From the NCBI GenBank assembly GCA_945892755.1, contig CAMDDO010000014.1, positions 1-48,648 of the forward strand: 48,648 bases of DNA, read 5' to 3'. A model generated the notes under the pieces. The model made no database searches. It worked only from the letters and a program-made list of their open reading frames with translations, and was not told the origin of the DNA. A program made the position numbers and the translations under genes. Every line of letters begins with the position of its first letter. The stretch's first letter is position 1. This stretch comes from Rhizobium sp. Q54 (GTDB taxonomy: Bacteria; Pseudomonadota; Alphaproteobacteria; UBA828). Of the stretch, positions 6,060 to 11,778 are shown one piece after another.

Positions 6060-7004
6060 ATGCCTCGAAAGATCGTCGTTGCCGCAGCGCAAATGGGCCC
6101 CGTCGCGCGAGACGAGAGCCGATGGCACGTCGTCGACCGCCTGATTTCAATGATGCGCGAGGCCCATCGTCGCGGTGCGAGGCTCGTGGTGTTTCCGGAG
6201 CTCGCCCTGACGACGTTCTTTCCGCGCTGGGCGCTGCAAAGCGAAGAGGAAGTGGACAGCTTCTTCGAGACCGAAATGCCGAACAACGCGACCGCGCCTC
6301 TATTCGAGGTCGCCAAGGAACTCGGCGTCGGCTTTCACCTGGGCTATGCGGAGATCGAGGCTGTCGCCGGCGGCAAGAGGCATCACTACAACACGGCGAT
6401 CCTTGTCGACCAGAAGGGAAAGATTGCCGGAAAGTATCGCAAGGTGCACCTGCCGGGCTATGCGGAACCGCAGCCCCACCATCCGGTTCAGCACTTGGAG
6501 AAACGGTATTTCGAGGTCGGCAATCTCGGCTTCCCGGCGTTCCGCACCATGGACAGCATCATGGGCATGTGCATCTGCAATGACCGGCGCTGGCCCGAGA
6601 CCTACCGTGTGCTCGGCCTGCAGGGAGCGGAGATCATCATGCTCGGCTACAACACACCGAGCGCCAACCCGTCTAGCGCGTCGGAGCCTCTCCATCTCGG
6701 CATGTTTCACAATTTGCTGTCAATGCAGGCCGGCGCCTATCAGAACGCGGCCTGGGTGATCGGCGCGGCGAAGGCGGGAATCGAAGAAGGCGTGCACCAT
6801 ATGGGCGGCAGTTGCATCATCGCGCCAACCGGCGAGATCGCCGCGCTCGCGACAACCGAGGGCGACGAGGTGATCACGGCGGAGTGCGACCTCGACAAGG
6901 GCACCTATATCCGCGAGACCATCTTTAACTTCGCCGCTCATCGGCGCATCGAGCACTACAAACTGATCACCGAGCAGACCGGCGTGGTGCCGCCGCCCGA
7001 ATAA
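6060..7004 (+). CDS. N-carbamoyl-D-amino acid hydrolase (D-carbamoylase)
   Basis: 314 residues of the nitrilase superfamily. The protein follows the Agrobacterium D-carbamoylase closely over its whole length: FPELALTTFFPRW, GKYRKVHLPG, CNDRRWPETYRVLGL, LLSMQAGAYQN. The catalytic triad is Glu47, Lys128 and Cys173. Such enzymes hydrolyse N-carbamoyl-D-amino acids to the D-amino acid, CO2 and ammonia, normally after a D-hydantoinase. No hydantoinase, racemase or transporter is present here, so it is an orphan of that pathway. Cytoplasmic. GAGGGAGA lies 7-14 bases upstream of the ATG. Its place between recombinase relics and an IS6 element suggests it came with the island. Confidence 0.9.
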   Translation: MPRKIVVAAAQMGPVARDESRWHVVDRLISMMREAHRRGARLVVFPELALTTFFPRWALQSEEEVDSFFETEMPNNATAPLFEVAKELGVGFHLGYAEIEAVAGGKRHHYNTAILVDQKGKIAGKYRKVHLPGYAEPQPHHPVQHLEKRYFEVGNLGFPAFRTMDSIMGMCICNDRRWPETYRVLGLQGAEIIMLGYNTPSANPSSASEPLHLGMFHNLLSMQAGAYQNAAWVIGAAKAGIEEGVHHMGGSCIIAPTGEIAALATTEGDEVITAECDLDKGTYIRETIFNFAAHRRIEHYKLITEQTGVVPPPE

Positions 7005-7037: not shown

Positions 7038-7840
7038 GGGCTTTGACACATTAACGCCGGTCGGTCGCAGTTTGCACCTGACGTGTCGATCCTAGGCCGC
7101 GGTCGTCGCTTGATTCCAGACGGAATGAGCTCGTGCCCGGAATCGATGAAATATAGAACGCGAAATCAGATGCCGTTGAACATTGAAGACGTTGTACACG
7201 GCAGCGTGGACAGAGACGAAGCGTTGGGCTGATCCAGCCGATTTGAAGCCCTGCATCTTGCGTTCTCGTCGCCGCAACGGCTGATGCGCGTTTTCCGCTC
7301 GGTTGTTGGCCCGCAGGCCCCGCTCGTGCTGCCCTGAAAAGCCGAGCACCTGGAGCGCCGCGCGGTAGGATCCAAGCTTGTCGGTGACCACGACGCCTGG
7401 CACGAAGCCCTGTCGCTTCAGCAGTGTCTTGAACAATTTCAATGCCGCTGCCTTGTCCCGCCTCGGCTGGACCAGCATATCGAGCACTTCGCCTTCACTG
7501 TCCACCGCGCGCCACAGATAAAGGTGCCGGCCACAAACGGAAATCACCATCTCATCGAGATGCCAGCGATCCCGCGACGCCACTCGTCCTCGCCTGAGGT
7601 TCCGTGCGACCATCGACCCGAATTTCAGCACCCAACGGCGGATGCTTTCATTGCTGACCGATAGCCCCCGTTCTGCCAGCATGTCTTCGACATCGCGATA
7701 GCTTAAAGTGAAGCGCAGATAGAGCCAAATTGCGTGCCGGATGACCTCCGGCGGGAAGCGGTGGCGAGCGTAGGAAATTGTCTTCATGCACCAGGGTAGC
7801 ACCATCCGACCTAGCGCCATCGGTTTACGTGTCAATGCCC
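7038..7840 (-). mobile_element. IS6-family insertion sequence, about 803 bp
   Basis: The transposase gene is bounded by imperfect inverted repeats: GGGCTTTGACACATTAA at 7038 and, on the opposite strand from 7840, GGGCATTGACACGTAAA. The total length near 800 bp fits the IS6 family. The 8-base flanks (7030-7037 and 7841-7848) differ, so there is no target-site duplication. That suggests an old insertion, or one formed or reshaped by replicative transposition or recombination. The right end lies only 88 bases before the start of the cyanophycin-synthetase-like gene. Confidence 0.75.
7092..7787 (-). CDS. IS6-family transposase
   Basis: 231 residues from the ATG at 7787. The DDE triad is intact: Asp78 (WHLDEM), Asp136 (VVTDKLGSYR) and Glu165 (NNRAENAHQP), followed by the family's RRRERKMQGFKS segment. 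The N-terminus (FPPEVIRHAIWLYLRFTLSY) is the usual helix-turn-helix region. Longer starts at 7802 and 7850 are open, but the latter begins outside the inverted repeat, so I use 7787. No internal stop is visible, so the enzyme may be active. Confidence 0.88.
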   Translation of the reverse strand: MKTISYARHRFPPEVIRHAIWLYLRFTLSYRDVEDMLAERGLSVSNESIRRWVLKFGSMVARNLRRGRVASRDRWHLDEMVISVCGRHLYLWRAVDSEGEVLDMLVQPRRDKAAALKLFKTLLKRQGFVPGVVVTDKLGSYRAALQVLGFSGQHERGLRANNRAENAHQPLRRRERKMQGFKSAGSAQRFVSVHAAVYNVFNVQRHLISRSIFHRFRARAHSVWNQATTAA

Positions 7841-7927
7841 AGGCCCCCACGCTGGCGCCAAATGTGGCGCTAAACTAACATTCAACGTGGATTCCTTTAG
7901 GGAGTCGGGCATGCCCGGGCGATCTCG

Positions 7928-10072
7928 TTGAAGCTGCTTCGCCAAAAACTATACAAAGCCTCGAACTTGCTAGCGCCGGTCCCGGTCGTCCGCATCAAGA
8001 TTGCCGTCGGACCAGACGAAATGGCAGGGGCCGAGGCCCGTGCGCGCGCCGCTGTCGGGCATCTGGCTGAGTTCATGCCGCCGATCCCGCCGCGCTCCGT
8101 TCTGAACCGGCCGGCGGTGCCCGTCTTTCCTCAGGAACGGATATATGCGCCCGAAGAAATGGCGGCGTACGTTGCACTCGCGCTGCAGAGGGAATTCGGC
8201 TTCGAGATGGACGTCGCACGAATTTTGTCGGCGTCGGCAGATGGGGCGTGCGAAGCTTGTTTTCAGTACCAAGACGCGGGGTTGGGATTGGCGTCCGGCC
8301 GGCTGGCCGTCACGCTGGTCGATGCCGCGTGGTCCGCGGCCGGGGCCCCGTCGGGTTCCCGCGCTCACAGTCCCCTGCCGGGGCTTCTCGCCGACGGGAT
8401 GAAGGCCTTGAGGGCGCAGACCCTCGGGGTGCTGACCCGCCGGATCGTTTGGGAAGGCGAGCGGCGAGACATTCCGTGGTCGCGCATCGATTCTCATTCG
8501 TCCCAAAAGACCGTGCAGCTGGGCCACGGGCACAAACTCCGAAGCTTTCGGGGCAGCTACACCAGCGACACCTCGTACATCGCGACGATGCTCGCTACGT
8601 CGAAGCATGGCGCCTGCGAGCTTTTCCGTTCCCACGGGATTCCGGTGCCGCGACAGCTTCTCGTCAATGATGGTGATGCGGCGGTCGCCGCGGCGCGACG
8701 CATCGGTTATCCGGTGGTGGTCAAGCCTGAACACGCGGACATGGGGTATGGCGTCCGCATCGATCTGAACGACGAGCGAAGCATCCGTGATGCGTTCGAG
8801 GCGGCCCGCTCTTACGGACTGCCCGTACTCGTCGGAGAGCAGATTCGGGGCGATGACTATCGCGTCACGCTGATCCACAACCGCATGGTGGCAGCGGGGC
8901 GTGATATCCCAGCCCACGTCATCGGCAACGGGCGCTCGACGATCGAAGAGTTGATCGCAATTCTCAACAGCGATCCGCGGCGCGGGCGTCAAGACTACTG
9001 CGAACTCACCACGATCGTCGTCGACGACGAAATCCGCCGCAGCCTGGAAGACCAAGACGTCACTCTGGAGTCGGTTCCGCTGCGGGGCGCCGTCATTCGG
9101 TTGCGCCGCTGGTGGCGCCAGTCCAGCGATCATACGGCGGAAGACGTGACCGACGTAGTCCACCCGGACAACAGAGCGATGTTCGAACGCGTAGCGCGAC
9201 TGATTGGACTCGATATCGCCGGGATCGATTTCGTCACGTCGGATATCCGCCGCCCGTGGACCGAGGTCGGCGGTGCAATACTGGAAATCAATCCAACGCC
9301 GGGCCTCAACACCCATGTGCGCGCCGGCTCCCCGGATATTGTAACGATGGTCGTCGATGCGTTCTTTCCGCCGGGCGACAACGGCCGCATCCCAACCGCG
9401 GCCATCGTTGGCCCTGTGAGCGCGGTGCGCAGCGTCGCCGAGATTTTGAATGCCGCCGGGTACAAGGTGGGTCTAGCCACCGACGAAGGGATTGAAATCG
9501 ACGATACGATGATTGTCCGGGGCAATTTTCCTGGCCCGGCCCGGGCACACATGGTCCTAGGCGATCCCCTGACGGAGGCCGCGGTGCTGCAATTCTTCGC
9601 GGGCGGAGTCATCGACGACGGATTGGGCCTTGATAAGGCCGGGGTTGGGGCCGTGCTGTGTTTGGCGGCAAGCGGTGAGACGGCAGCGGAAACGGACGCC
9701 CCCCAAAAGCTAGAAGACTGCGCGGGATTGGTTGTCAAGGCCGCCCGCGATGTTGTCGTCCTCAATGCCGAAGATTCGGGCTGCGCCCGCCTCGCCAAGC
9801 AAAGCCAAGCGAAGCGCCCTTGTTGGATCGCCAATAACTCCGAGCTGCCTATGGTCGCCGATCACATCGCCCACGGTGGCTTGGCGGTCACGCCAGTCGA
9901 ACGGGACGGCATGACCTCGCTGTGCCTGTGGGACGGCAAGAAACCCTCTCCACTCGCGGCGGCGACTGGAACCGACGCCGAGATAATCGAAACCATGTTT
10001 GCGGCCGCGATCGCTTTTGGGCTGGGCATATCCGCGCCTGTCATAGCCGAGGCGCTCGCTAAAAAGCTGTGA
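7928..10072 (+). CDS. Cyanophycin-synthetase-like ATP-grasp protein with degenerate Mur-ligase domain (CphA2-like)
   Basis: 714 residues. Residues 1-200 resemble the N-terminal domain of cyanophycin synthetase. Residues ~205-480 are a complete ATP-grasp domain: VQLGHG, TSDTSYIA, VVVKPEHADMGYGV with Lys266, HVIGNGRSTIEEL, and metal ligands Glu453 and Asn455 in LEINPTPGL. Residues 488-700 follow the Mur-ligase part in order (GIEIDDTMIVRGNFPGP, DPLTEAAVL, GLGLDKAGVGAVL), but the P-loop GTNGKTT is replaced by GPVSAVR and the C-terminal ligase subdomain is missing. CphA is near 870 residues. The layout fits CphA2-type enzymes, which polymerise beta-Asp-Arg with the ATP-grasp site only; the true substrate is unknown. 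The start is TTG: no ATG or GTG lies between the stop at 7898 and residue 32. No cyanophycinase is nearby. Confidence 0.8.
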   Translation: MKLLRQKLYKASNLLAPVPVVRIKIAVGPDEMAGAEARARAAVGHLAEFMPPIPPRSVLNRPAVPVFPQERIYAPEEMAAYVALALQREFGFEMDVARILSASADGACEACFQYQDAGLGLASGRLAVTLVDAAWSAAGAPSGSRAHSPLPGLLADGMKALRAQTLGVLTRRIVWEGERRDIPWSRIDSHSSQKTVQLGHGHKLRSFRGSYTSDTSYIATMLATSKHGACELFRSHGIPVPRQLLVNDGDAAVAAARRIGYPVVVKPEHADMGYGVRIDLNDERSIRDAFEAARSYGLPVLVGEQIRGDDYRVTLIHNRMVAAGRDIPAHVIGNGRSTIEELIAILNSDPRRGRQDYCELTTIVVDDEIRRSLEDQDVTLESVPLRGAVIRLRRWWRQSSDHTAEDVTDVVHPDNRAMFERVARLIGLDIAGIDFVTSDIRRPWTEVGGAILEINPTPGLNTHVRAGSPDIVTMVVDAFFPPGDNGRIPTAAIVGPVSAVRSVAEILNAAGYKVGLATDEGIEIDDTMIVRGNFPGPARAHMVLGDPLTEAAVLQFFAGGVIDDGLGLDKAGVGAVLCLAASGETAAETDAPQKLEDCAGLVVKAARDVVVLNAEDSGCARLAKQSQAKRPCWIANNSELPMVADHIAHGGLAVTPVERDGMTSLCLWDGKKPSPLAAATGTDAEIIETMFAAAIAFGLGISAPVIAEALAKKL

Positions 10073-10483: not shown

Positions 10484-10558
10484 TGGTAGCGGGGGAGGGA
10501 TTTGAACCCCCGACCAAGGGATTATGATTCCCCTGCTCTACCGCTGAGCTACCCCGCC
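10484..10558 (-). tRNA. tRNA-Met (CAT), elongator type
   Basis: 75 bases including an encoded CCA. The minus strand folds as a full cloverleaf: acceptor GGCGGGG/CCCCGCT, D-stem GCTC/GAGC, anticodon stem GGGGA/TCCCT with loop ATCATAA (anticodon CAT), and T-arm GGGGG-TTCAAAT-CCCTC. The sequence matches the alphaproteobacterial elongator methionine tRNA pattern rather than the initiator, whose first pair is unpaired. Its 3' end faces the accessory block at lower coordinates, the usual geometry for an island attachment site. Confidence 0.95.
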
Positions 10559-10602: not shown

Positions 10603-11778
10603 TCAAGCGGACGCCGCTTCGACCGCCACGGCTGGTTCGATCCCCGGTATCGCTTCAACCGCTTCGGGCGCCATACGGGCGATCCAGCCGCCGCCGAGCA
10701 AATGCAAGCCATCATAGAGCACACAGGCCTGGCCCGGCGCGGTGGCGGGCTCGGCCTCGTCGAGCCTGATGGTCGCGCCTGTCGCATCGACGCGTTCGAT
10801 GCGCGCGCCGACGCCCGGATGGGTCGAGCGCAACCGCGCGGTGACCGCCCTTCCCTCGCCCGGCAGCGCGCCGAGCCAGTTGGCGGCGCGCAGTTCGATG
10901 CGACGCGCCATCAACGCCGCGCGTGGTCCGACCACGACGCGGTGGGCCTCGGGCTCGATGCGCACGACGAAGAGCGGCTCGGGCGCCGCCACGCCGATGC
11001 CACGACGCTGGCCAATCGTGAAATTGATCGTGCCGTCATGCCGACCGAGCACGCGCCCCGCCAGATCGACGATCGCGCCGGGTTCCGCCGCGCCCGGCTT
11101 CAATCGACCGACCAGCGAGGCGTAGGAGCCGTTCGGCACGAAGCAGATGTCCTGGCTGTCAGGCTTCTCGGCGACGCCAAGGCTTAGCCGCGCGGCTTCG
11201 GCGCGGACCTCGGCTTTGCTCAGCCCGCCAAGCGGAAAACGCAGGAAGTCAAGCTGCGCGCGCGTGGTCGCGAACAGGAAATAGCTCTGGTCGCGCGCGG
11301 CATCGACGGCGCGGTGCAGTTCGGGTCCATCGGCCCCTTCGATCCGGCGCGCGTAATGGCCGGTGACCAGCGCATCGGCGCCGAGCGAGCGCGCGGTTTC
11401 CAACAGGTCGCGAAACTTGACTCGCTCATTGCAGCGAATGCACGGGATCGGCGTTTCGCCGCGCGCATAGGCATCGGCGAAATCCTCGATCACGTCGCGG
11501 CGAAAGCGCGCCTCGTAATCGAGCACATAGTGCGGAAATCCGAGCCGGTCCGCGATGCGCCGCGCGTCGTGAATATCCTGCCCGGCGCAACACGCCCCCT
11601 TCTTTCCGATCGCCGCGCCGTGATCGTAAAGCTGCAAGGTCATGCCGATCGCCTGATAGCCGCTCTCGACGACGAGCGCCGCCACGGTCGAGGAATCGAC
11701 GCCGCCCGACATCGCGACCACGACGCGGCTCTCGGCGCGCGGCTTAGCGAGACCAAGGTCAATGTCGAAGCGCGTCAT
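10603..11778 (-). CDS. mnmA: tRNA-specific 2-thiouridylase MnmA
   Basis: 391 residues. It activates and thiolates U34 of tRNA-Glu, -Gln and -Lys with ATP and persulfide sulfur. Seen: PP-loop SGGVDSS at 24-30, the catalytic cysteine Cys116 in [11 protein letters not shown], and the second cysteine Cys212 in SQDICFVP. Length is normal. The true start is the ATG at 11778, which overlaps the ferredoxin stop (ATGA, 11775-11778); a longer open frame upstream is the other frame of the ferredoxin gene. It is the last gene of the iscR operon, so its sulfur donor is encoded two genes upstream. It is followed by tRNA-Met on the same strand. Confidence 0.95.

Follow-up and report, generated by a model that had tools for sequence, protein, structure and literature searches.

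Does a gene that resembles a cyanophycin synthetase gene encode an enzyme that makes cyanophycin? The question is raised by an open reading frame at 7928-10072 (+) in 48,648 nucleotides of Rhizobium sp. Q54 DNA, a stretch referred to here as the window. The original prediction described the product as a CphA-family ATP-grasp enzyme outside cyanobacteria, and this is borne out by an intact CphA-type reading frame with homologs among alphaproteobacteria. By similarity, proteins of this kind readily receive the label cyanophycin synthetase, though residues needed to make cyanophycin are gone.

Domain organization and predicted fold

The 714-residue protein begins at a TTG codon, in agreement with the N-terminus of the family. 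Alignment to CphA1 divides it into an N domain (7928-8422, +, residues 1-165), a complete ATP-grasp or G domain (8423-9388, +, residues 166-487) and a Mur core, or Mcore (9389-10069, +, residues 488-714). CphA1 (PDB 7LGN, 7LGM and 7WAC/7WAE) has the same three parts over the whole length of the window protein. CphA1 chains were the best matches in a phmmer search of the PDB (7LGN, E = 2e-110; 7LGM, 7e-106), with CphA2 far weaker (7e-42 and 2e-37). The hmmscan matches were cyanophycin synthetase models, at scores far under the curated cut-offs (TIGR02068, 443.8 vs 850 bits; PRK14016, 480.1 vs 877 bits). Within 7899-7931, a six-codon ATG mini-ORF follows a possible ribosome site, and its TGA shares bases with the TTG start codon of the gene (TTGA); translational coupling is possible.

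An AlphaFold2 model built from 16 sequences (mean pLDDT 85.8, pTM 0.81) superposes over residues 1-714 on TeCphA1 1-722 with Z 35.8, and on CphA2 7TA5 over 562 residues with Z 24.7. Both the sequence and the predicted fold put the window protein nearer to CphA1 than CphA2. The predicted fold also matches GshF, LysX/ArgX and Ddl. The structure prediction that had been proposed for residues 488-714 aligns them with the TeCphA1 Mcore, ending at 722. The Mlid of TeCphA1 comprises residues 724-876 (PMC9427784), so the missing part is exactly this C-terminal Mur subdomain, the absence of which had been claimed from the sequence.

The Mur core is also catalytically dead, as had been concluded from its P-loop. 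At 9410-9430 (+) it has GPVSAVR in place of the GTNGKTT of CphA1, with a three-residue gap in the alignment, and none of the four Mur residues is kept (K499 and T500 are missing, with D in place of T522 and Q in place of E558). The N domain lacks HxxEH, the primer-making motif of the CphA1 N domain, and has A and Y in the columns of TeCphA1 E82 and H83.

The ATP-grasp site and the substrate pocket

Residues were compared, in TeCphA1 numbering, across an alignment of alphaproteobacterial, cyanobacterial and Bacteroidota sequences. The claim of a complete ATP-grasp site was upheld, with all six ATP/Mg residues (K226, K266, R312, D434, E453 and N455) identical to those of CphA1 (TeCphA1 K220, K261, R309, D431, E450 and N452). 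K266, the E453/N455 pair and HVIGNGRSTIEEL supply the ATP-grasp motifs. Judged from the alignment, the ATP/Mg site and the equivalent of the carboxylate-binding Arg309 are intact, and the protein has the ATP/Mg-binding residues and the fold of an ATP-grasp carboxylate-amine ligase.

The substrate pocket is another matter. Of the contacts to cyanophycin and aspartate in TeCphA1 (E215, H267, R323, N394, S396 and R458), five are replaced (E215M, H267M, R323D, N394R and R458N) and only S396 is kept, giving the pattern MMDRSN. The roles of these residues and the effects of mutating them are taken from PMC9427784. E215 recognises the arginine of cyanophycin, and the catalytic H267 stabilises the cyanophycin acylphosphate (PMC9427784). 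Arg323 binds the beta-carboxylate and Arg458 the alpha-carboxylate of the aspartate substrate, which both hold together with N394 (PMC9427784). In the window protein, the Glid phosphate loop at 8729-8752 (+) reads EHADMGYG (LDGNHGRG in TeCphA1), with Met272 for His267, and Asp326 occupies the Arg323 position (8903-8905, +). The G-omega loop at 9110-9133 (+), where model confidence is reduced (pLDDT about 66), reads WWRQSSDH vs TANLSTGG and has Arg397 for Asn394, and EINPTPGLN (9284-9310, +) keeps E453 and N455 and has Asn461 for Arg458. Read from the alignment and from the structures of a remote homolog that is about 30% identical, the aspartate and cyanophycin contacts appear replaced.

The replacements are shared with one other protein. 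The homolog in MAG MO_074.B3 (L072/L085), which belongs to another order and is 47-48% identical, also lacks the Mlid and has a dead Mur site (GTRGATG at the P-loop position). Its pocket pattern is MMDRAN, and L085 is the only other protein having all five replacements. Since the same five occur in a homolog this distant, they look selected and not the result of decay. The homolog in the ERR599062 MAG (L033/L087; 35-39% identical) is likewise Mlid-less with a dead Mur site; unlike the window protein, L033 has Leu at position 323 and keeps N394. Among the other compared sequences whose ATP site is intact, L085 (Asp) and L033 are the only ones without Arg at position 323. The G-omega loop of L085 is WWRIAPDS; the Asn loop is retained in nearly all other sequences.

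Protein-level constraint on the gene is indicated by comparison with L072. The G domains are 60% identical, the Mur cores 47% and the N domains 25%, and codon differences are fewest at the second position (0.31) and most at the third (0.57). As the Mur core is 47% identical to that of L072, it is conserved despite being dead, presumably as structure.

Phylogenetic placement

A phylogeny against CphA1 and CphA2 had been suggested as a check. A tree of G domains groups the window protein with L085 (support 100) and L033 (99), apart from the CphA1 and CphA2 of cyanobacteria. Its next neighbours in the tree of full-length proteins are non-canonical and come from alphaproteobacteria, including L082, L036 and L086, and the best trees place it among such homologs. 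For both alignments, a placement with canonical CphA1 is rejected by the AU test (p = 0.02 each). Constraint with cyanobacterial CphA2 gave p = 0.06 and 0.11; this grouping is disfavoured, though the test does not reject it at 0.05. L036, L082 and L086 are full-length CphA1-like proteins that have lost E215 and H267, as the window protein has, but differ from it in keeping R323, N394 and R458. Because these relatives have a live Mur site and the Mlid, the tree suggests that the Mur half was lost in the window lineage separately from its loss in CphA2.

Cyanophycinase and the type of G site

The genome that contains the gene (3.27 Mb, estimated 100% complete) was searched for other parts of a cyanophycin pathway. 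The original prediction noted no CphA1, cyanophycinase or isoaspartyl dipeptidase nearby. This holds genome-wide, where canonical CphA1 was not detected and cyanophycinase (Peptidase_S51), IaaA (Asparaginase_2) and IadA (isoaspartyl dipeptidase) had no match at 1e-5, but a second CphA-like gene (L032 1662-3817, G000:C71) is present. Its product, 34% identical, keeps the P-loop GTSGKTTT, lacks the Mlid and has Gly at both Mg-ligand positions. A glutathione synthetase gene seems, judged by eye, to lie just downstream of L032 1662-3817 on the opposite strand. A same-genus genome (G002) has the C71-type gene only.

Co-occurrence was surveyed in 22 alphaproteobacterial genomes with CphA-family genes, a canonical-type (NHGRG-type) G site being defined by H267 and the aspartate residues, not by all six contacts. 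Cyanophycinase is present in all five genomes with such a site (G036, G100, G174, G241 and G322; in G036, Gly takes the place of E215) and in 0 of the 17 sampled genomes lacking one (Fisher 3.8e-5, a statistic that ignores kinship). The split runs through one genus, with G241 on one side and G137 on the other. The canonical-type G site and cyanophycinase thus go together in the sampled genomes, which offers a simple test of which 'cphA' means cyanophycin.

Genomic setting

The gene sits on the side of the window with lower G+C, between an IS6-family element and a tRNA-Met gene (10484-10558). The IS6 element, directly upstream (7038-7840, -; NF033587, 219.6 bits), has inverted repeats at 7037-7055/7823-7841 and is present once in the genome. 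It has no target duplication, the 8 bp beside each end differing (TCGTCTGT and AGGCCCCC). Beyond it lies a carbon-nitrogen hydrolase gene (6060-7004, +; PF00795, 8e-57), whose nearest model is N-carbamoylputrescine amidase, at a score below its cut-off. An operon of the two genes was considered and rejected; the element lies between them, and in the absence of a target duplication their adjacency may be secondary. A functional link of the hydrolase to the CphA-like gene is doubtful. A polyamine as amine donor, considered from Asp326 and the nearby hydrolase, was likewise set aside.

An island around the gene is likely; the 3' end of the tRNA-Met, sought as its end repeat, occurs only once in the window. 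No conserved gene neighbourhood was found across homolog loci. The neighbours of the L072/L085 and L033/L087 genes differ from those of the window gene, and homologs adjoin an amidase and a branched-chain-type ABC transporter (L033), an ABC transporter (L035) or a PLP enzyme (L072). No relatives were found on viral contigs. An ARAGORN tRNA-Glu call at 10722-10816 (+), probably spurious, falls within a tRNA-thiouridylase-like gene of the opposite strand.

Probable function and alternatives

With the arginine-adding half and nearly all of the residues known to hold aspartate lost and the ATP site kept, the window enzyme probably joins other building blocks instead of making cyanophycin. The reading we favour, and consider reasonably probable from sequence comparison, is that of an amide ligase of the ATP-grasp type, built on a CphA1-derived scaffold, with substrates other than Asp and beta-Asp-Arg. 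Such a ligase would have arisen from an alphaproteobacterial CphA1-like ancestor. It would still phosphorylate the carboxylate of its substrate and couple it to an amine, with the Mur core retained as a structural element. Activity at the remodelled site would point to an undescribed product. A broader proposal is more tentative: that an alphaproteobacterial lineage of CphA-derived ligases gave up arginine addition and aspartate recognition, kept the Mur core as scaffold and makes an undescribed peptide or amide. No description of such a variant was found in the open-access literature (subscription papers lay outside the search).

The original prediction likened the protein to CphA2, and in layout the likeness stands; CphA2 (PDB 7TA5, 8FXH/8FXI) also has the ATP-grasp site as its only live site and lacks the Mur P-loop and the Mlid (PMC9427784). 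The likeness is weak in the substrate residues, in the more distant sequence and in the Mur region, which is fuller in the window protein than in the shorter cyanobacterial CphA2s (616-674 residues), where it is more reduced. Nearly all of the CphA2s compared keep four of the six substrate residues (D/E215, R323, N394 and S396), for which the window protein has M, D, R and S. Membership of CphA2 was therefore rejected. The substrates of CphA2 are dipeptides set free from cyanophycin. All four CphA2 genomes checked also have cyanophycinase, and none was detected here to supply dipeptides. That the protein works like CphA2 and polymerises beta-Asp-Arg dipeptides into cyanophycin is accordingly improbable, even with a CphA2 grouping not firmly rejected by the AU tests.

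The product had been foreseen as cyanophycin-like or a different peptide polymer. The replaced contacts speak against cyanophycin itself; a different polymer is compatible with the data. A polymerase of another dipeptide or amino acid, yielding a cyanophycin-like polymer of other composition, would account for the retention of the CphA scaffold, including the N domain and the complete Mur core, and for the specific and conserved replacement of the contacts to arginine and aspartate. We nevertheless regard it as unlikely, since conservation is lowest in the N domain, which lacks HxxEH, and no nearby partner enzyme was found to make the monomer or degrade the polymer. The dead Mur site, the IS6 element directly upstream, the patchy occurrence and the lower-G+C location could also mark a pseudoenzyme, or a gene that is decaying within a mobile region. 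Against this stand the intact reading frame with its coding-type codon-position pattern, the complete set of ATP residues and the conservation of the G domain in another order, and there is little chance that either is the explanation.

Other CphA-like arrangements

Several further arrangements were seen among the homologs. Genome G022 has three CphA paralogs (L036, L037 and L038), as if the two halves had been divided between genes: one is complete, one is Mur-dead without the Mlid, and one has a destroyed ATP-grasp site with a live Mur site and the Mlid. A Rhodospirillaceae MAG (L103 7686-11368) contains a tandem pair of short CphA-like genes that overlap by a few bases. At L079 8304-10232, L080 3818-5608 and L084 4565-6331, canonical CphA1 is followed by a gene for a protein of 588-642 residues with a live Mur P-loop and no alignable ATP-grasp residues.
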